Assembly (NCBI GenBank): GCA_026393855.1 | Contig: JAPKZJ010000123.1 | Location: forward strand, 1 to 59,141 | From: Candidatus Aminicenantes bacterium | GTDB taxonomy: Bacteria > Acidobacteriota > Aminicenantia > Aminicenantales > UBA4085 | Direction of reading: 5' to 3' | Length of the DNA stretch: 59,141 nt | Shown here: piece by piece, positions 18,644 to 27,616 of the stretch | Position numbering within the stretch: the stretch's first letter is position 1 | Layout of the letters: each line of letters begins with the position of its first letter | Program-made: the position numbers and the translations under genes | The notes under the pieces: model-generated | The model's input: only the letters and a program-made list of their open reading frames with translations | Told to the model about the DNA's origin: nothing | Databases searched by the model: none

Positions 18644-20391
18644 AACAGACCATCTTTCTCAAGATTCTGGCCGGCTTCGTCGTCGTCATTTTGCTGGGCA
18701 CGCTGCCGATCGTCCTGACTTCGTTTGCCTCCATGCGCCGGAGCGTCGAGATCAGCACGTCCAAGCACCTGGAGTCCCTGGGCCGGACGCTGCAAGCCGA
18801 AGTCGAAGCCCGCCTCGACGCCGGAGACGAACACGGTCTCGACGTCTGGTTCAAGGCCCTGGGCCCGACGATCGGGGCCCGGCTCACGGTCATCGATCCG
18901 TCTGGTCGCGTCCTGGCCGATTCCGAAAAAGATCCGGCCGTGATGGAAGACCATCGGTATCGCCAGGAAGTCGCGGAGGCGCTGCAGGGCCGGGTGGCCG
19001 AGTCGCTGCGCTTCAGCTATACCGTGGAAGCCCGAATGCTCTATATCGGCATGCCGTTGGTCAAGGGAGGCTCCGTCCGGGCCGTCCTGCGGCTGAGCCA
19101 GTATATGCGGGGCATCGACGAGTTCATCAGCCACAACCGCGTTGCGACATTCCGAGCGGCCTTGGCCGTCATCGCCCTGACGCTCGTCGGAGCCGTCCTG
19201 TTGTCCCTGCACTTCGCCAAGCCCGTGGCCCGTCTCCGCCTGGCCGCCGACCGGGTGGCCGGAGGCGACTTTTCCGTCCGGGTCAAGGTTCGCCAGCGCG
19301 ACGAGCTGGGTGCGCTGGCCGCCGATTTCAACCTGATGACCGAACGCTTGACGGCCCTGTTCGCCGACGCCACCCGCCAGCAGGACAACCTGGTTCGGAC
19401 GATCGGCGCCATCCAGGAAGGACTCGCGGTCCTGGACAAGGACGGCCGGATCATCCTGGCCAACGACGCCTTCCGGACCATGACTCGGGAAGCCGGCGCC
19501 GAAGGCAAGTTCTTTTGGGAGATTCTGCGTCGGCCGGCTCTGCGGGAGCTGGTGGCCCTGGTTCGGGCCGAGCGCGGCGTCCTGCGCCGCGAGCTCCGGC
19601 TGGATGAGCGCAGCTACCTCTGCACACTCAGCTATCTCCCGCATCAGGACGGCGTCGTGCTGCTGCTGCAGGACCTGACCGAGCTGCGCCGGGTGGAGGA
19701 CATCAAGAAGGACTTCGTCATCAACGCCTCGCACGAGCTGCGGACGCCGATTGCCGCCGTTTTGGGGGCGGCCGAGCTGTTGGAGATCGACCCGAGCCCG
19801 GCCCGGGACGCGGCCGCGCTGGAGATCCTCAAGCGCAACGCCGGCCGGCTGGGCGGCATCGTCGATGACCTCCTTAAGCTGGGCGAGCTTGAGGCTCCCA
19901 GCTTTCGGCTCGACCTCAAGCCTCTGACCGGACCGGAGCTCGCGGCCCGAGTGGTCCCGATCTACCAGGCTCGGGCGGCGGCCAAGGGCCTCGAGCTGCG
20001 GGTCGAATCGGCGCCCGGCTTGCCCCCGTTCACCGCGGACTCGGACCTGCTGGAGCGCATGCTCCACAACCTCATCGACAATGCCGTCAAGTACACCGAC
20101 CGGGGCCGCGTGGTTCTGTCCTTCCGCCGCGAGGGGGGCGATACCTTGATTGAAGTGTCGGATACGGGACCGGGCATACCGCCCGAGAACCAGGCCCGCG
20201 TCTTCGAGCGGTTCTACGTCGTGGACAAGTCGCGCTCGCGCAAGCTGGGCGGGACGGGGCTGGGGCTGGCGATCGTCAAGCACGTCGTCCAGCTCCACGG
20301 CGGGACGATTACGCTCCGCAGCGAGGAGGGGAAGGGGACGACCTTTACCGTCCGCCTCCCGGCCGAACCGGCCGCGCCGGCTCAGTCCTGA
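18640..20391 (+). CDS. phoR: PhoR-like sensor histidine kinase
   Basis: A 583-residue membrane kinase. One membrane span (about 8-29), an extracytoplasmic region of about 130 residues, a second span (about 168-190), HAMP (about 190-240), a PAS-like section (about 255-330), HisKA with the phosphorylated His in NASHELRTPIAAVLG, and the ATPase with HNLIDNAVKYTD, DTGPGIPPE and GTGLGLAIVKH. It overlaps the phoB stop (ATGA). The sizeable periplasmic domain differs from the short loop of E. coli PhoR and resembles Gram-positive PhoR. Its last bases overlap the converging gene by 10 bp. Confidence 0.87.
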   Translation: MKQTIFLKILAGFVVVILLGTLPIVLTSFASMRRSVEISTSKHLESLGRTLQAEVEARLDAGDEHGLDVWFKALGPTIGARLTVIDPSGRVLADSEKDPAVMEDHRYRQEVAEALQGRVAESLRFSYTVEARMLYIGMPLVKGGSVRAVLRLSQYMRGIDEFISHNRVATFRAALAVIALTLVGAVLLSLHFAKPVARLRLAADRVAGGDFSVRVKVRQRDELGALAADFNLMTERLTALFADATRQQDNLVRTIGAIQEGLAVLDKDGRIILANDAFRTMTREAGAEGKFFWEILRRPALRELVALVRAERGVLRRELRLDERSYLCTLSYLPHQDGVVLLLQDLTELRRVEDIKKDFVINASHELRTPIAAVLGAAELLEIDPSPARDAAALEILKRNAGRLGGIVDDLLKLGELEAPSFRLDLKPLTGPELAARVVPIYQARAAAKGLELRVESAPGLPPFTADSDLLERMLHNLIDNAVKYTDRGRVVLSFRREGGDTLIEVSDTGPGIPPENQARVFERFYVVDKSRSRKLGGTGLGLAIVKHVVQLHGGTITLRSEEGKGTTFTVRLPAEPAAPAQS

Positions 20392-21161
20392 ACGATGGGC
20401 GAGGGCGAGGCCGAAAAGGGGTTGACCCGGACGATCAGCGAGAAGAGGAAAGGATAGCTCGCCTTGAGGTGTTGGGCATAGGCCACCCACTCGCCGGCCA
20501 ACTGCGAGAAGGCCCTCTTCACGTCGTTGGCCAGGTGAGCCATATCGGAGGGGGGCAGGCGATCCAAAGCGTCTCCGCGCATTTCCAGTTCGTCGACGAC
20601 ATGAAAGACCGCCCAGAGAAGGTCGGTGAACCGCTCGTGCTCCAAGAGGTTCGGGTTTTCGAGCAGCCGCAGCAGAAACTCGCGGTGCCGACGCAGGAAA
20701 TCCCGCAGGCAGATCAGCGAGTCGGGCGATACCGCGACGTCATAGGCGAATTCGCGGGCTTCACATATGGCCGCCTGGAAGTCCTTCTTCTGCCAGCGGG
20801 GCTCGAAAGCCAGCCGGGGCGCCAGATCGGCCGCGTTCCGCACGAGGCTGGGAAACCGGCCCAGCAGCTCGAAGCCGACGTCGCTGAAGAAAGTCCCGAT
20901 GACCATGTTCATCTTCCGCAGCAGGGCCGTCTTCTCCCGCCGGGCCAGAATGCCATCGATGACCAGGGTCACGACCAGGATGTTGAGGAAGAGGAAGGCG
21001 ATGTCGCCCACCAGGTAGATGGCGATGTGGTGAAGATCGCGGAACAGCAGGTAGTGCAGGCCATACGTAGCCGCGGATGCGACGACGAGGGCCAGGGAAA
21101 GCTTCAAGCGCCAGGAAACCCGCTGGCGCCGGGAGCCGGAGGCGGATTCCTTGCGGGCCAT
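20382..21161 (-). CDS. Two-span membrane protein of unknown function
   Basis: A 259-residue protein. A basic N-terminus (MARKESASGSRRQR) is followed by two membrane segments (about 17-38 and 45-70). The soluble helical domain that follows contains DVGFELLGRFPSL, ICEAREFAYDVAV and LLWAVFHVVDELEMRG. The ATG at 21161 is the first credible start; the frame continues upstream antisense to the next gene but there it has no family-like content. It runs toward phoR and overlaps its end by 10 bp. I recognise no named family. Confidence 0.7.
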   Translation of the reverse strand: MARKESASGSRRQRVSWRLKLSLALVVASAATYGLHYLLFRDLHHIAIYLVGDIAFLFLNILVVTLVIDGILARREKTALLRKMNMVIGTFFSDVGFELLGRFPSLVRNAADLAPRLAFEPRWQKKDFQAAICEAREFAYDVAVSPDSLICLRDFLRRHREFLLRLLENPNLLEHERFTDLLWAVFHVVDELEMRGDALDRLPPSDMAHLANDVKRAFSQLAGEWVAYAQHLKASYPFLFSLIVRVNPFSASPSPIVQD

Positions 21162-21245
21162 GTCCCGTATTCTAGCAGAATCCGGCTGCGCCGTCCTCCC
21201 GCCTGCCGCCGGATCGGGTATAATGAGCCCCCAGGAGGCATGCCC

Positions 21246-22916
21246 ATGTCGACGACCCGCGGATTGGCTAGATTGGAAGACGCCCGGGCTCGGATCATCG
21301 GACAAGACCTGGAGTTCTCGACCCCGTATGGGCGGCGCCGGATGTTCTACGCCGATTACACGGCGTCCGGTCGGGGCTTGGCGCCCATCGAAGACCAGAT
21401 CCGGGAGATCCTGGAATCCTACGCCAACACCCATACCGAGGACGATTATTCGGGCCGCCGTTCGACCCGCCTCTACCACGCCGCTCTCGATCTCATCCAC
21501 CGCCTGGTCAACGCCGGGCCTCGGGGTGTTGTCCTTCCCGCCGGATCGGGCTCGACCGCGGCCTTGAAAAAGCTCTTGGAGATCCTGGGCCTCTACGTGG
21601 CGCCCGTCTTTCGCGAGCGGATCGCCGCCGTCGGCCCCCTGGCGGCCGGCTTGGACCGGGGCAAGCCCGTCGTTTTCATCGGCCCCTACGAGCACCACAC
21701 CAACGAATTGATGTGGCGGGAAGCGTTCGTCGAGGTTATCGTTGTCGGGCTGAACGGCCGCGGCCGGATGGATCTGGCCGATCTGGAGCACAAGCTGACC
21801 GATCCGCGCTTCGCCGAACGGATGCGCTTCGGGTCCTTCTCGGCCGGATCGAACATCACCGGGCTGCGGACGCCGGTCTACGATGTCGCCCGCCTCTGCC
21901 ACCGGCACGGCTGCCCGGTCTTTTTCGATTTTGCCGCGATCGCCCCCTATGTCGAGATCGACATGAATAAGGATGGGGAAGCCTATTTCGACGCGATCTT
22001 TTTTTCGCCGCATAAGTTCCTGGGCGGGCCGGGCAGCGCCGGGATCCTGGTCATCAACGATCATCTGTACCGCAAAGATCTCGCGCCGACGACGGCGGGG
22101 GGCGGGACGGTCGTCTTCGTTGGGCCGACTACGCACGATTTCTCCGACGACATTGAGACTCGGGAATCGGCCGGGACGCCCCCCATTTTGCAGACCATCC
22201 GGGCCGCGCTGGCCATGGACCTGAAGGACAAGATCGGAGCCGACGTGATCGGCCGAATCGAGACGGGCCTGAGGGCCCGCTTCCTGGATGGACTCGGCCG
22301 CCTGCCGGCGGTCGAGGTGATCGGCCGTCCCGATGATCCGGAATCGACGCCGATCCTTTCGTTCAACATCCGGCACGGCGACCGTATCCTCCACCCCAAA
22401 TTCGTGGCCCGACTGCTGAACGATCTGTTCGGCATCCAATCGCGGGCCGGCTGCAGCTGCGCCGGGCCCTACGGGCATCTCCTGCTGGACATCAACCACG
22501 AACGATCCCTGCAGTACCGGCAGGCGATCCAATGCGGCTATCAGGGTGTCAAGCCGGGTTGGGTGCGGATCAACCTCCATTACACCTTTACCGAAGAGGA
22601 CGTGGATTTTCTGCTGGCAGCCTTGGCTTTCATCGCCCGGCGGGGGGCGGAGTTTCTGCGGCTCTACCTTTTCGACCGGTCTACAGGCGAGTGGATGCAA
22701 GAGGACGAAGCGCAAGAGCGGCCGATCCTGTCGGTCGATTGGCATCCTTCCCGGACGGATGCCGGGGACAAACCGCTGTCGGAGCTGCGGTGCCTCTATC
22801 TGGCCGAGGCGGAGGCGGAGGCGGAACGGCTGGCCTTGCTCGGCGAGCCCGCTTATATCAGGGATACGGAGGCGATCGAGGGGCTCAAGTTTTTCCGTTA
22901 TATCCGGGCTCGCTAG
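21246..22916 (+). CDS. Class V aminotransferase-fold enzyme, cysteine desulfurase/selenocysteine lyase-like
   Basis: A 556-residue PLP enzyme of the NifS/SufS fold. Landmarks are YADYTASGRGLAPIE, AGSGSTAALKKL (PLP phosphate loop), PYEHHTNELMW, VFFDFAAIAPYVEID (Asp for PLP), FFSPHKFLGGPG (PLP-binding Lys in the SPHK motif) and the loop SRAGCSCAGPYGH, whose Cys would accept sulfur. It is about 150 residues longer than SufS, with extra C-terminal sequence. GGAGG is correctly spaced for the ATG at 21246, not 21240. A TATAAT sits at 21219-21224. DsrC follows by 67 bp, so sulfur delivery to DsrC is an attractive inference. Confidence 0.8.
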   Translation: MSTTRGLARLEDARARIIGQDLEFSTPYGRRRMFYADYTASGRGLAPIEDQIREILESYANTHTEDDYSGRRSTRLYHAALDLIHRLVNAGPRGVVLPAGSGSTAALKKLLEILGLYVAPVFRERIAAVGPLAAGLDRGKPVVFIGPYEHHTNELMWREAFVEVIVVGLNGRGRMDLADLEHKLTDPRFAERMRFGSFSAGSNITGLRTPVYDVARLCHRHGCPVFFDFAAIAPYVEIDMNKDGEAYFDAIFFSPHKFLGGPGSAGILVINDHLYRKDLAPTTAGGGTVVFVGPTTHDFSDDIETRESAGTPPILQTIRAALAMDLKDKIGADVIGRIETGLRARFLDGLGRLPAVEVIGRPDDPESTPILSFNIRHGDRILHPKFVARLLNDLFGIQSRAGCSCAGPYGHLLLDINHERSLQYRQAIQCGYQGVKPGWVRINLHYTFTEEDVDFLLAALAFIARRGAEFLRLYLFDRSTGEWMQEDEAQERPILSVDWHPSRTDAGDKPLSELRCLYLAEAEAEAERLALLGEPAYIRDTEAIEGLKFFRYIRAR

Positions 22917-22983
22917 AGGCGGCGGATTTTCCGAGGGGGCTGTGGTAAAATGCTCCTTCCGAATCTCAAACTGGAGCCACGCC

Positions 22984-23304
22984 ATGCCGACGCTGACGAT
23001 CGAAGGCCAAGCCGTCGAGCTCAACGAAGAAGGATTTCTCGCGGTTCCCGCCTGTTGGAATGCCGCCGTCGCCGAAGCTTTGGCTCGGCATGAGGAGGGG
23101 CTGGAGACGTTGACTCCGGATCACTGGAAAGTCATCGATTTTATCCGGGGCTTCTATGTTGAGAGGAACATGGCTCCGATGGTCCGCAAAGTCTGCCAGG
23201 CGTCGGGCTTCACCTTGAAACGGATTTACGAGCTGTTCCCCTCGGGCCCGGCCAAAGGGGCCTGCAAGCTGGCCGGCCTGCCCAAGCCCGACGGCTGCGT
23301 TTAA
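22984..23304 (+). CDS. dsrC: DsrC/TusE-family sulfur carrier with both C-terminal cysteines
   Basis: A 106-residue protein. It has the DsrC family core DHWKVIDFIRGFYVERNMAPMVRKVC and the swinging C-terminal arm GACKLAGLPKPDGCV. Two cysteines lie eleven residues apart in the arm, the last being the penultimate residue. True DsrC of dissimilatory sulfur metabolism has both; TusE has only the last. In known systems sulfur carried on the arm is passed between DsrAB and the DsrMK(JOP) membrane complex as a trisulfide. A DsrM/DsrK-like pair lies 2.2 kb downstream, but dsrAB is absent from the window. GGAG precedes the ATG. Confidence 0.9.
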   Translation: MPTLTIEGQAVELNEEGFLAVPACWNAAVAEALARHEEGLETLTPDHWKVIDFIRGFYVERNMAPMVRKVCQASGFTLKRIYELFPSGPAKGACKLAGLPKPDGCV

Positions 23305-23320
23305 GTGATCGGCGAAGCGC

Positions 23321-24496
23321 CTAGCGCCGGACGGGTGTCGCCGCGATCTCCCGGACGGCTGCGATGGCCGCGTCGATGTGGGCCTCGGTATTGAAAGGGC
23401 CGATACCGAAGCGGACGGCGCCGTGGATCTTATCCGTTCCGAGCTGTTCATGCACCATCGGTGCGCAATGGAGCCCGGTCCGGCAGGCGATGTTGTAATC
23501 GACGTCGAGCATGGTGCCGACGTGGGCGGCCTCCAGGTTATCGAGGTTAAAGCTCATGACGGCGATGTGATCGGCCAGGCCGTCCAGGCAGTAGATCTTG
23601 ACCCGGTCGATCCGCCGCAACCCCTCAACCAACCGCGCCAGGAGCGCCATTTCCCGATGGTGGATGGTCTCCATCCCTTGGCTTTGGATCCACTCCAGGC
23701 CCGCATGGAGGCCGGCGATGCCCATGATATTCGGAGTACCGAATTCCAGCCGGTACGGATATTCCTCGAGATGGGACCGCTGGGCCGAGCGCACGCCGGT
23801 TCCCCCGGCCCGGGTCTGCCGGACCTCGACGCCCTCGCGGACATAGAGGCCGCCGATCCCGGTCGGGCCGAGGAGGGATTTGTGGCCGGTGAAGGCCACG
23901 GCGTCCAGAAAGTCCGCTTCCATGTCGATCGGGACCTTGCCCGCCGATTGGCTGGCGTCGATGAGGAAGAGGATGCCCCGCTCGCGGCAGAGTCGGCCGA
24001 TTTCCCGGATGGGCTGGACCGTGCCGATGACGTTGGAGGCGTGGTTGACGACCACCAGCCGGGTTTCGGGCCGGAAGCGGGCGGCGATGGCCTCCGGCTC
24101 GACGAACCCGGCGGCGTTGAAGGCCACATGATCGACGGCGACGCCGTGATCACGGCTCAAGTGGAAGAGCGGTCGCAGGACCGAATTGTGCTCGAGGGTC
24201 GTGGTGATCGCATGATCGCCCGGCCCGAGCAAGCCGAAGATGAGCAGGTTGAGGGCGTCGGTCGAGTTGTAGGTGAAACAGAGCCGGTTGGGGTCGGCCC
24301 CGTGGAAAAAAGAGGCCATCTGCTTCCGGGTGCCTTCCAGCATCTCTCCGGCTTCCAGGCACAGGTCGTAGCCCGAGCGGCCGGGATTGACGCCGAATTT
24401 CCGGTAGAAGCGATCCATGAAGACATAGACCTCCTCCGGCTTGGGATAGGAGGTGGCTCCGTTGTCCAGGAATATGATTTTGTCGGTGTCGATCAT
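23321..24496 (-). CDS. Cysteine desulfurase family protein
   Basis: About 391 residues. NifS/IscS-type landmarks: FLDNGATSYPKPEEV at the start, NSTDALNLLIFG, TLEHNSVLRPL, LFLIDASQSAGKVPID (PLP Asp), FTGHKSLLGPTGIG (PLP Lys) and the short active loop ACRTGLHCAPMVHE with the catalytic Cys. It matches the desulfurase subfamily of about 380 residues often unlinked to isc genes. The ATG at 24496 is preceded by CGGAGG; an upstream ATG at 24550 lies right after the leader hairpin and has no ribosome site. It converges on dsrC with a 16-bp gap. Confidence 0.88.
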   Translation of the reverse strand: MIDTDKIIFLDNGATSYPKPEEVYVFMDRFYRKFGVNPGRSGYDLCLEAGEMLEGTRKQMASFFHGADPNRLCFTYNSTDALNLLIFGLLGPGDHAITTTLEHNSVLRPLFHLSRDHGVAVDHVAFNAAGFVEPEAIAARFRPETRLVVVNHASNVIGTVQPIREIGRLCRERGILFLIDASQSAGKVPIDMEADFLDAVAFTGHKSLLGPTGIGGLYVREGVEVRQTRAGGTGVRSAQRSHLEEYPYRLEFGTPNIMGIAGLHAGLEWIQSQGMETIHHREMALLARLVEGLRRIDRVKIYCLDGLADHIAVMSFNLDNLEAAHVGTMLDVDYNIACRTGLHCAPMVHEQLGTDKIHGAVRFGIGPFNTEAHIDAAIAAVREIAATPVRR

Positions 24497-24556
24497 CAGG
24501 GCCTCCGAATAGTCTGCGGAATGCGCCCGGCGGGCGGCGGAGTTTTCCATACCTTC

Positions 24557-24601
24557 GCGGCGCTAAAACCCCGATTTTCAAAGCGGGGCCAAAAGCGCCG
24601 C
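24557..24601 (-). promoter_or_regulatory. Leader hairpin upstream of the cysteine desulfurase
   Basis: An outer 8-bp stem (GCGGCGCT/AGCGCCGC) and an inner 5-bp stem (CCCCG/CGGGG) are separated by A/T-rich bulges on both sides. In the desulfurase mRNA it would lie in a leader of roughly 140 nt between the promoter at 24646-24674 and the start at 24496. It has no T tract. It could be an RNA control element or a simple palindrome. Confidence 0.45.
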
Positions 24602-24645
24602 TCCGTATGAGCCCTGCGAATACGCCGGGCTCATCGAGCGGGCTT

Positions 24646-24674
24646 ATACTAGTGGAAGGCCGGCCGAAAATCAA
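24646..24674 (-). promoter_or_regulatory. Promoter for the cysteine desulfurase
   Basis: Read leftward, TTGATT (24674-24669) and TAGTAT (24651-24646) are separated by 17 bp. The transcript would start near 24639 and carry the hairpin at 24557-24601 before the desulfurase start. Confidence 0.5.
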
Positions 24675-24682
24675 TCGGGCCT

Positions 24683-24735
24683 AGTGTCCCGTCTCAGAAA
24701 TTCCAATCCCACAGTCTCCCCGGAGACGGGACACT
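24683..24735. repeat. Palindromic element with 13-bp arms
   Basis: AGTGTCCCGTCTC at 24683-24695 is repeated inverted at 24723-24735 around 27 bases. Two further GC-rich self-complementary stretches follow (GGGGGG/CCCCCC at 24741-24759 and CCCCCTGAGGGGG near 24776). This looks like a REP/MITE-like intergenic element rather than a gene terminator. No second copy was noticed in the window. Confidence 0.5.
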
Positions 24736-24874
24736 TCCAGGGGGGAGACAAGCCCCCCTTCGGCGCTCCGCTGACCCCCTGAGGGGGCCTCGCCGCCTCC
24801 CTCATACTCCCCGGCGGTCGTGCGTCCAGCTCGCTTGGGACTTGGCCAATAGATTTTCGAGACGCACAACTCGC

Positions 24875-24903
24875 TTGACAGCGGCCCTCCGAAGCGATGA
24901 AAT
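24875..24903 (+). promoter_or_regulatory. Promoter for the CGGC-domain gene
   Basis: A consensus TTGACA at 24875-24880 is followed after 17 bp by TGAAAT at 24898-24903. The coding start at 24972 leaves a leader of about 60 nt with AAAGGAG inside it. Confidence 0.5.
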
Positions 24904-24971
24904 CGACTTCCCCCGCGGCGCGGGGCGCCGGCTCCGATGGGGGCCGGGACAGGAACAAAGGAGACTCGGCC

Positions 24972-25415
24972 ATGACCAGGATCGGCATCGTCATCTGCGC
25001 CCGCTACCAAAGCTGCGGCGGCGGCAAATGCTTTCGGGCCCTGCGGGAGCGGGCCGGCGCGTTCGCCCGCTACCCAAAAGAGGAGACCGTCGAGATCGTC
25101 GGCTTTTCCAATTGCGGAGGCTGTCCCGGCGGAAACATCGAATCGGTGCCCGAGGAGATGAAAAAGAACGGCGCCCAGGCCATCCACCTGGCGACCGGCC
25201 TCATCGTCGGCTATCCGCCCTGCCCCCACTTGCGGCGGTTCAAGGAGTTCATCGAGGCTCGCTACGGCCTTCCGGTCGTCATCGGGACCCATCCCATTCC
25301 TCTGAAATACAAGCAGGTCCATGACCGGCTTCCGTTTTGGCAGGAGTCCGGCATGGCCGATCTGGCGGGGGATCTCCTGGCCGAAAGCCCGGAGGTCATG
25401 GAAGCTTACAACTAG
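24972..25415 (+). CDS. CGGC-domain putative metal-binding protein
   Basis: A 147-residue protein of the small CGGC family. Conserved cysteines are in VICARYQSCGGGKCFRAL near the N-terminus and in GFSNCGGCPGGNIE (about 48-61), with a third in YPPCPH. Members are thought to bind a metal or cluster, but no reaction is established. It stands between a desulfurase and the DsrM/DsrK-like pair and has its own promoter. A link to sulfur or redox chemistry is suggested by neighbours and cysteine content only. Confidence 0.75.
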   Translation: MTRIGIVICARYQSCGGGKCFRALRERAGAFARYPKEETVEIVGFSNCGGCPGGNIESVPEEMKKNGAQAIHLATGLIVGYPPCPHLRRFKEFIEARYGLPVVIGTHPIPLKYKQVHDRLPFWQESGMADLAGDLLAESPEVMEAYN

Positions 25416-25433
25416 ACCGGAGGACTCGCCCGA

Positions 25434-25462
25434 TTGGATTCGATCATCGGGGCCTGTATAAT
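25434..25462 (+). promoter_or_regulatory. Promoter for the DsrM/DsrK-like operon
   Basis: TTGGAT at 25434-25439, a 17-bp spacer and a perfect TATAAT at 25457-25462. The first gene starts at 25497 with GGGAG before it. Confidence 0.65.
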
Positions 25463-25496
25463 AGTCCGTCCGATTCGGGCTGGGAGACGATCCGGC

Positions 25497-26204
25497 ATGA
25501 GCCCTTTCCTGAAAACGCTCGAGAACGAGGTCCAACTGATCTGCCTCGCGTTCCTGGCCCTCGTCTATATTTTACGGCTGGCATGGATCTTCCGTTTCCG
25601 TTCGGCTCGCGATCGCGGGCTGGCCGAGGGCAGCGGGTTCAGGGGCGCGGGCTACTCCCTAGGCAGCGTGGCGATGCCCTGGGCCATGGAGTCGATCCGG
25701 CGGCGCCCCTTCTTCTATATCCAGTTCGTCTTCTTTCATCTGGGTGTCGTCGCCGCGATCGCCGCCACTTTCATCATCCCCTACGCCCCCGGCCTGTTCG
25801 AAAAGCGGTTCATCGTTCGGGGCTTCCAGATCGTCATCGGCGCGGCCTTTGCCTCCGGCGTTCTGCGCCTCGTCCGGCGCTTGTCCAACCGCACCCTCCG
25901 CTCCATCAGCCGGCCCGACGACTATGCTTCGCTGGCCCTGATGATCGCCTTCTTTCTAGCCGGGACGCTGGCGATTCCCAATCATCCGGAGAAAGGGGAG
26001 GCGGCTCTGATCGCGTTCTTCGGCCTGACGGCGTTCTTTCTCGTCTACGTCCCGTTCTCGAAGATCTGCCACTACCTCTATTATCCGTTCACCCGCTATT
26101 TCCTGGGCTTGACCTTGGGCCGCCGCGGCGTCTGGCCGCCGGCCCGCGGACGGCGCGGATCCGCATCTTCCGCGGACGGAACCGCCGCCGGGAGGCCGTC
26201 ATGA
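25497..26204 (+). CDS. DsrM/NarI-like membrane cytochrome b subunit
   Basis: About 235 residues with five predicted membrane spans (about 11-31, 72-95, 110-127, 146-164 and 172-200). Histidines at the ends of spans (QFVFFHLGVV and PFSKICHYLYYPF) are placed as b-heme ligands are in DsrM, HmeC and NarI. Such subunits pass electrons between menaquinol and a partner iron-sulfur protein. Its stop overlaps the start of that partner (ATGA), as in dsrMK. I start at the ATG at 25497 because of its ribosome site; an upstream frame at 25434 would begin inside the promoter. Assignment is by topology and partner, so a generic NarI-like subunit is possible. Confidence 0.7.
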   Translation: MSPFLKTLENEVQLICLAFLALVYILRLAWIFRFRSARDRGLAEGSGFRGAGYSLGSVAMPWAMESIRRRPFFYIQFVFFHLGVVAAIAATFIIPYAPGLFEKRFIVRGFQIVIGAAFASGVLRLVRRLSNRTLRSISRPDDYASLALMIAFFLAGTLAIPNHPEKGEAALIAFFGLTAFFLVYVPFSKICHYLYYPFTRYFLGLTLGRRGVWPPARGRRGSASSADGTAAGRPS

Positions 26205-27616
26205 GCCGGACAACGGCGCCCCGATCGCGTCAGGTCATCGATCTGCCTCTCGATGTCCGAACGCAGGAGAAGGCCATAACGGAGAAAGCGCGCTGCGTCG
26301 AGGACGGCCGCCTGGCCACGTACCGGCCGGACGGGAGGAATGTGGAGCGGTTCCTGGCTCTGCTGTCCCGGCGGATGAACAGGCAGCTGGCCGTCTCGTT
26401 CACGGGCTGCGTCCACTGCGGACTTTGCGCCGATGCCTGCCACTACTCGCTGGCCTTTCCCGACGATCCGCAGATGGCTCCCGTGGCCAAGGCGGATCGG
26501 ATCCGTAAAATCTTCAAGCGGCATATCGATTGGACGGGGCGGATCGCGCCGTGGTGGGTCGGAGCCCGCCGGCCGGTCGACGACGAGGATCTCAACGAGC
26601 TCAAGAACGTGGTCTTCGGCCTGTGCAGCGGCTGCCGGCGCTGCACGCTCAACTGCCCCATGGGGGTCGACACCGCCGGCTTGATCCGCTTCGCCCGCGG
26701 CCTCCTGACCGAGCTGGGCATCGTGCCCGAGGGGATCTTCAACGTCAGCCGGGATCAATGGGACACCGGCAACCAGATGGGCGTTTCCGAGGAGGACTAT
26801 TTGGAAACCTTGGCCTGGATGCGCGACGAAGTCCGGGCCGAGCTGGGAACCGACACGGTCGACATCCCGGTGGACAAAGAGGGCTGCGACTTCCTCTATG
26901 TCATCAATCCCCGCGAGATCAAGTTCGATCCGCGATCGATCGGACAGGCAGCGAAGATCTTCCACTTGGCCGGAGAGTCCTGGACGATGCCCCGTTGGGG
27001 TTGGGACAACACGAACTTCGGCTTGTTTTCCGGGGACGACGCGCTGGGGGCGTTCGTGGCCGCCAACGCCTACGACGCGGCGACCCGGCTGAAGGCCAAA
27101 CGGATCGTCATCTCGGAATGCGGCCACGGCTTCCGCTCGACGCGGTGGGAAGGCTACGGCTGGGCCGGTCGCGACCAGGATGTCCCAAGCGAATCGGTGG
27201 TCGTCACGCTTTTCCGCTGGCTGGAAGAGGGGCGGCTGCGGGTCGATCCCGGCCGCAACCCGCTGCCCGTGACGTTTCATGACTCCTGCAACATCGCCCG
27301 ATCCGGGGGGATCACCGAAGAGCCGCGCCGGGTTTTGGCGCGCGTCTGCGCGGACTTCCGGGAAATGACCCCCAACCGGACGGAGAACTATTGCTGTACC
27401 GGGGGAGGCGGTCTCCTCTCGATGGCCGAATACCGCCCGGTCCGCTTGGAAGCGGCCGCCGTCAAGGCCCGGCAGCTCGAGGCCACCGGCGCCAAGCTCG
27501 TCTGCACGATGTGCCATAACTGCATCGACGGCTTGACCGACGTCATCAAGCACTATGGCCTGGATATGAAAGTCGTCCAGATTCTGGAGCTTGTCGACGC
27601 CGCGCTGGTGCTCTGA
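26201..27616 (+). CDS. DsrK/HdrD-like iron-sulfur protein with CCG domain
   Basis: A 471-residue cytoplasmic protein. Two [4Fe-4S] ferredoxin-type motifs are CVHCGLCADACHY (about 70-82) and CSGCRRCTLNCPMG (about 144-157). The C-terminal part has a CCG-type cysteine set: FHDSCNIARSGG, about 37 residues later NYCCTGGGGLLS, then CTMCHNC. In HdrB/HdrD and DsrK such cysteines hold the noncubane cluster that handles heterodisulfide or DsrC disulfide/trisulfide. It overlaps the membrane subunit gene by 4 bp. With a two-cysteine DsrC nearby, a menaquinol-DsrC oxidoreductase is the best guess; other quinone-linked partners remain possible. Confidence 0.78.
   Translation: MSRTTAPRSRQVIDLPLDVRTQEKAITEKARCVEDGRLATYRPDGRNVERFLALLSRRMNRQLAVSFTGCVHCGLCADACHYSLAFPDDPQMAPVAKADRIRKIFKRHIDWTGRIAPWWVGARRPVDDEDLNELKNVVFGLCSGCRRCTLNCPMGVDTAGLIRFARGLLTELGIVPEGIFNVSRDQWDTGNQMGVSEEDYLETLAWMRDEVRAELGTDTVDIPVDKEGCDFLYVINPREIKFDPRSIGQAAKIFHLAGESWTMPRWGWDNTNFGLFSGDDALGAFVAANAYDAATRLKAKRIVISECGHGFRSTRWEGYGWAGRDQDVPSESVVVTLFRWLEEGRLRVDPGRNPLPVTFHDSCNIARSGGITEEPRRVLARVCADFREMTPNRTENYCCTGGGGLLSMAEYRPVRLEAAAVKARQLEATGAKLVCTMCHNCIDGLTDVIKHYGLDMKVVQILELVDAALVL

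Follow-up and report, generated by a model that had tools for sequence, protein, structure and literature searches.

A DsrC, cysteine desulfurase and CCG iron–sulfur gene set in Aminicenantes genomes without a detected sulfite reductase

Introduction

DsrC normally serves sulfite reductase, and its gene is taken to mark sulfate/sulfite or sulfur-oxidising metabolism. What, then, could DsrC do in an organism that encodes it together with a putative membrane reductase, and no sulfite reductase? The question is raised by a contig of 59,141 nucleotides (JAPKZJ010000123.1, assembly GCA_026393855.1; here “the window”, meaning this whole stretch) from a metagenome-assembled genome (MAG) of Candidatus Aminicenantes (Acidobacteriota; 3.68 Mb, 144 contigs, 95% complete). 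The window encodes a DsrC, a cysteine desulfurase (desB) and an overlapping gene pair for a cytochrome b-like membrane subunit and an iron–sulfur protein with a CCG motif (the CCG protein). We find that this gene set is real and stands without a detected sulfite reductase. We tentatively propose that it forms a membrane module that reduces DsrC independently of sulfite reductase, with desB probably loading DsrC with sulfur that is released as sulfide.

A precedent exists in an Aminicenantes MAG of ~50% completeness with a two-cysteine dsrC, dsrD and no dsrAB, which was counted among candidate sulfate reducers; that study left the role of dsrC open (PMC6081815). The lineage name and the pattern of dsrC without dsrAB are the same here, but dsrD is present there, and the available part of the account describes neither a CCG pair nor desB. 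Our literature search, outside which most subscription papers fell, found neither the CCG pair nor desB described in a DsrAB-less setting. Since an order without detected sulfite reductase conserves a putative DsrC-reductase operon, dsrC is unsafe as a marker. The operon would also give DsrC and membrane CCG enzymes a sulfite-independent job, testable with a defined four-gene set.

Sulfite reductase in the genome and its order

Genome-wide statements rest here on profile family searches and on selected genome stretches, cited by L numbers. The NIR_SIR model, which covers the sirohaem sulfite-reductase domain of DsrA, DsrB, AsrC and CysI, found no match in this genome and none in the 58 relatives sampled from its order; of these 59 genomes, 39 reach 90% completeness or more with contamination of 5% or less. 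DsrC is nevertheless present in 49 of the 59. This search gave no sign of a dsrAB or asr hidden elsewhere, and an initial annotation of the DNA, which had noted the lack of dsrAB from the window's letters, thus holds genome-wide. That annotation had also named what would speak against it, a dsr operon elsewhere with its own DsrMK; we found no sulfite reductase and no other DsrK-like CCG protein in the genome. DsrAB in the same genome, the mark of a DsrMK(JOP) system for sulfite reduction, was therefore not found.

As a positive control, NIR_SIR matched in 30 of 38 outside genomes in which this CCG family also occurs; most of the matches fall in two neighbouring frames of ~370–450 aa, as expected of dsrAB. 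The eight genomes without a match comprise five Aminicenantes, one Chitinivibrionales (Fibrobacterota), one Syntrophorhabdus and one Zixibacteria. The Zixibacteria genome (L150) has a CCG protein that falls in the dsr-island clade described below, and its gap more probably reflects incompleteness of the genome. A Syntrophus genome (L118) gave a single match, in a 294 aa frame. DsrD was found in none of the 59 genomes of the order; no control genome matched in that search either, though the model detects the DsrD of the dsr-bearing contig L148.

Gene order in relatives and other phyla

In the window, dsrC (22984–23304, + strand) is convergent with desB (23321–24550, − strand) across a gap of 16 bp, and the cytochrome b-like gene (25497–26204, +) overlaps the CCG gene (26201–27616, +) by 4 bp. 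All 18 relatives with a wide context have desB at most 3 kb from DsrC, and in 17 of them the two genes lie on opposite strands. By a simple estimate that ignores shared descent, the chance of finding a given gene this close to another in a 3 Mb genome is ~0.2%. Several genera have cytochrome b, CCG and DsrC genes consecutively on one strand, and a second Aminicenantes type, with a CCG protein 40–45% identical, is ordered DsrC—cytochrome b—CCG—desB. In genus g15, DsrC and desB are adjacent, and the CCG pair is not in the stretch read.

The arrangement extends beyond the phylum. A Chitinivibrionales (Fibrobacterota) contig repeats the order DsrC—cytochrome b—CCG—desB, and contigs of Syntrophorhabdus and Syntrophus (syntrophic Desulfobacterota) carry DsrC—cytochrome b—CCG; in each case the DsrC has two cysteines. 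Since the cytochrome b/CCG/DsrC operon recurs in relatives, and since desB stays near DsrC throughout the wide loci, we conclude that the linkage is no coincidence. Functional linkage had initially been offered as inference, with conservation of the neighbourhood in relatives as the check; the neighbourhood is conserved, and gene order kept in relatives and in two other phyla backs the linkage.

DsrC of the respiratory type

The window DsrC (PF04358, 117 bits) has both C-terminal cysteines, C94 and C105, placed 11 residues apart as in respiratory-type DsrC and shared by the other two-cysteine rows of the alignment. Against solved PDB chains, its profile scores up to 138 bits with DsrC and 47 bits with a TusE-type chain, which speaks against a grouping with TusE, part of the other outcome that had been named as fatal. 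Assignment to TusE by family model fails as well (78 bits against a cut-off of 191 for NF008562).

Other DsrC-like proteins were seen. The same genome has a second sulfur cluster, at the end of contig C90 (L033:7540-10167), with a rhodanese, an SQR/FCSD-like flavoprotein, a single-cysteine DsrC2 and a DsrE2 protein. Elsewhere, L134:6053-6700 and L152:8371-9012 encode tandem-duplicated DsrC-like proteins, with two DsrC domains per chain and without the C-terminal GC(V) tail, near a cytochrome b/CCG pair.

The cytochrome b/CCG pair as a distinct family

The CCG protein (PF02754, 43 bits) combines two ferredoxin-type 4Fe-4S motifs with one HdrB-type CCG motif (C363, C398–C399 and C438-xx-C441), and its cluster cysteines are invariant in 20 homologues. 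The spacing agrees with the HdrB/HdrD-type pattern C-x(31-39)-CC-x(35-38)-C-x2-C, and so does the HdrB-like fold: the predicted model (pLDDT 86) matches EtfD, LutA and HdrB. Its partner, a TmcC/HmcE-like subunit, has ~5 membrane helices in its predicted model and two histidines, H81 and H192, that are invariant in the alignment and would fit one haem b.

Three families score highest for the CCG protein (TmcB 331, HmcF 315 and DsrK 263 bits), and each score lies below the equivalog cut-off. For TmcB/TmcC, the pair reaches 331 and 49 bits against 735 (NF045724) and 240 (NF045723); for HmcF/HmcE, 315 and 61 bits against 750 (NF045711) and 275 (NF045716). As DsrK, it falls short of a cut-off of 400 (NF045796), whereas the true DsrK in L148 scores 710. 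In fact, L148 carries that DsrK and a member of the window CCG family as separate genes. We therefore place the CCG protein in a separate family within the TmcB/HmcF/DsrK superfamily, which revises the first description of the pair as DsrM/DsrK-like.

The pair resembles TmcABCD and HmcABCDEF (TmcB—TmcC, HmcF—HmcE) in combining a CCG protein with a small cytochrome b, and both subunits have these as top-scoring families. It differs from them not only in its scores but also in its surroundings: the loci read have no TmcA/HmcA cytochrome c gene adjoining, and the Aminicenantes operon has DsrC and desB and no DsrAB. With DsrMK(JOP) it shares a CCG protein and a cytochrome b thought to act on DsrC, but it stands without DsrJOP as well as DsrAB.

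A third type of CCG protein, ~35% identical, was observed in relatives (L056:2168-9398; also L054, L055, L057, L058 and L059). It is not found in the window's own genome. Its operon encodes the large and small subunits of a NiFe hydrogenase, a cytochrome b, TusA, DsrE2, DsrE and a GcvH-like lipoyl carrier, and is a hydrogen-linked sulfur module.

The pair in DsrAB-containing genomes

Elsewhere, the window CCG family occurs in DsrAB-containing genomes, often in dsr islands, with CCG proteins 55–62% identical, and several of the contigs also bear dsrN, sat or dsrMK. In the dsr islands of L148, L160 and L171 the pair has a two-cysteine DsrC in its vicinity as well, evidence in favour of DsrC as the partner of the CCG family. 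Most DsrAB genomes have a Macro-domain gene and a PAS histidine kinase, often with a response regulator, beside the pair. In the clade without sulfite reductase, no Macro-domain gene was found adjoining the pair; DsrC, usually with desB, stands there instead, and the kinase matches are weak (30–31%) and come from a two-component gene that lies upstream.

The form that lacks sulfite reductase is a single derived clade. In the tree it makes a single group of 23 rows with 100/99 support, in which the Fibrobacterota sequence is basal and two syntroph sequences are nested; its neighbours are Desulfobacterota and Myxococcota sequences from genomes with NIR_SIR. A single decoupling from DsrAB that later spread is the history suggested by this topology, with that direction of change a probable one.

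Two observations concern the dsr islands themselves. The set of Macro-domain protein, PAS kinase and response regulator is conserved across many phyla (L119-L173, e.g. L162:6718-10782). The islands also encode an 80 aa protein (L162:3636-3878, matched in L149, L156, L160, L168 and L171); we considered it as DsrD, but it has no Pfam DsrD match, and the L148 gene is the true DsrD.

Proposed function and alternatives

Tmc/Hmc-type CCG complexes have already been proposed to pass electrons to DsrC (PMC6470260, PMC10553843). This precedent and the gene order make reduction of oxidised DsrC the most likely activity of the pair, which we propose by analogy. Decoupling of this DsrC reductase from DsrAB is well supported. 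As there is no sulfite reductase, oxidised DsrC must arise in another way, and the pattern points to a different sulfur source for its redox chemistry. The near-constant presence of desB makes a DsrC persulfide loaded by desB the best candidate. The following cycle names a candidate sulfur donor and a putative route for the electrons.

In this cycle, (I) desB would take sulfur from cysteine, or relay another sulfane sulfur, (II) the sulfur would be loaded onto the C-terminal cysteine of DsrC, (III) the second DsrC cysteine would resolve the persulfide, giving an intramolecular disulfide and H2S, and (IV) the non-cubane 4Fe-4S centre of the CCG protein would reduce the disulfide (or a trisulfide) with electrons drawn from the membrane via haem b. 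The net effect would be to use sulfane or cysteine sulfur as a sink for electrons, with sulfide as the product. If true, uncultured bacteria that abound in anoxic sediments would have in it a candidate electron sink. The broader form of the proposal is a dissimilatory, DsrAB-independent use of DsrC that spans more than one phylum: a cysteine desulfurase would feed a respiratory-type DsrC cycle with sulfur from cysteine or sulfane pools, and its reduction on DsrC by the membrane CCG complex would be the terminal electron sink. This form is possible but doubtful.

Several observations weigh against the desB-fed membrane module. No quinone pathway was detected: a search of all 59 genomes for MqnA/MqnD of the futalosine pathway (PF02621) gave no match, nor did one of this genome for MenD. 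The genome does encode complex I, an EtfD-like protein and a UbiA prenyltransferase resembling MenA, and the coupling to menaquinone proposed in the initial annotation stays conjectural. Its idea that desulfurases supply the sulfur has adjacency as its basis, and this applies to desB, not to a second and less consistently linked desulfurase-like gene, desA. desB could also serve another need, and none occurs on the Syntrophorhabdus and Syntrophus contigs. In the window itself, 2.2 kb separate DsrC from the CCG pair, with desB on the other strand. Finally, all genomes are MAGs, and because the contigs from outside the phylum are MAG contigs, misbinning is possible.

A somewhat unlikely alternative is that DsrC transfers no sulfur and only shuttles electrons, by dithiol/disulfide exchange, from the membrane pair to a soluble partner or back, while desB serves a separate sulfur need. 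The syntrophs, which carry the operon without desB, fit this. So does the interaction of DsrC with FlxABCD-HdrABC in D. vulgaris fermentation, as cited in PMC10504309 and PMC10553843. That system resembles ours in that an HdrB-like enzyme uses DsrC outside sulfite reduction (PMC10504309), but the enzyme in Aminicenantes is a membrane one. Moreover, no HdrB was found in this genome, whose only detected CCG domains are those of the window protein and the EtfD-like protein, and this makes a shuttle toward HdrABC less likely; the 18 of 18 wide Aminicenantes loci with desB near DsrC also argue against it. A remnant of a lost dsr pathway in decay, or a dsrAB missed by incomplete assembly, is far less probable still and largely refuted: the genomes are MAGs and the pair belongs to a dsr-associated family, but NIR_SIR was found in none of the 59 genomes, among them the 39 within the completeness and contamination limits given above, and neither DsrC cysteine nor any cluster ligand is lost across families.

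We also find it improbable that the module acts in sulfur trafficking or persulfide homeostasis (e.g. tRNA thiolation or cluster assembly) rather than energy metabolism, the pair only recycling DsrC. E. coli does have a sulfur relay from a cysteine desulfurase to TusE, and the IscS—TusA—TusBCD—TusE relay resembles the module in setting a cysteine desulfurase alongside a DsrC/TusE-family protein. The TusE role, however, needs the last cysteine only, and this genome has the separate single-cysteine DsrC2. The Tus relay includes no membrane CCG reductase, whereas Aminicenantes have one in the operon, with a two-cysteine DsrC and a TIGR01977 protein that is not IscS. The description of Aminicenantes as fermenters (PMC11631310) is in keeping with trafficking. 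No more probable is the oxidative direction, in which sulfide or persulfide would be bound on DsrC and electrons passed via the CCG protein to the membrane for sulfide disposal. CCG/DsrC systems can run both ways, and sulfur oxidisers use DsrMK with DsrC (PMC10504309); the second cluster on C90, with its rhodanese and SQR/FCSD-like flavoprotein, would suit this direction. Yet the module lacks both an oxidising partner (rDsrAB) and a known acceptor, and on some contigs of DsrAB genomes the relatives of the pair lie among reductive-type neighbours (sat, dsrD, dsrMK).

Desulfurase-like enzymes and neighbouring genes

Both desulfurase-like proteins of the window have the PLP-binding lysine and the active-site cysteine. 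desB belongs to the TIGR01977 cysteine desulfurase family (428 bits, cut-off 377), and its Lys224 and Cys362 are kept in 45 of 45 homologues; assignment to the selenocysteine lyase SclA was rejected (308 bits against 525 for NF040779). desA (21246–22916, +) encodes a class-V aminotransferase or cysteine-desulfurase-like protein of 556 aa (PF00266, 126 bits) whose top NCBIfam model, SufS, scores 111 bits against a cut-off of 475. Lys257, Cys403 and Cys405 of desA are kept in 5 of 5 homologues. It is far less steadily linked than desB, lying near DsrC in only 4 of the 18 wide relative loci.

Upstream of the pair, a CGGC-domain protein (24972–25415, +; PF08821, 99 bits) has conserved cysteines (C9, C15, C20, C48, C51 and C84, kept in 7 of 7), and its gene is a neighbour in part of the family. 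The next gene after the CCG gene is folK. By strand and spacing, the genes fall into about three blocks (desA—dsrC; desB; CGGC—cytochrome b—CCG—folK) instead of the four transcription units first described. The gene content given at that stage, a two-cysteine DsrC, two desulfurase-like enzymes, a CGGC protein and the overlapping cytochrome b/CCG pair, was confirmed in full. On the minus strand at 20382–21162, the window also encodes a membrane protein without a Pfam family, whose homologues (34–37%) adjoin DsrC in three other relatives (L074, L088 and L093).

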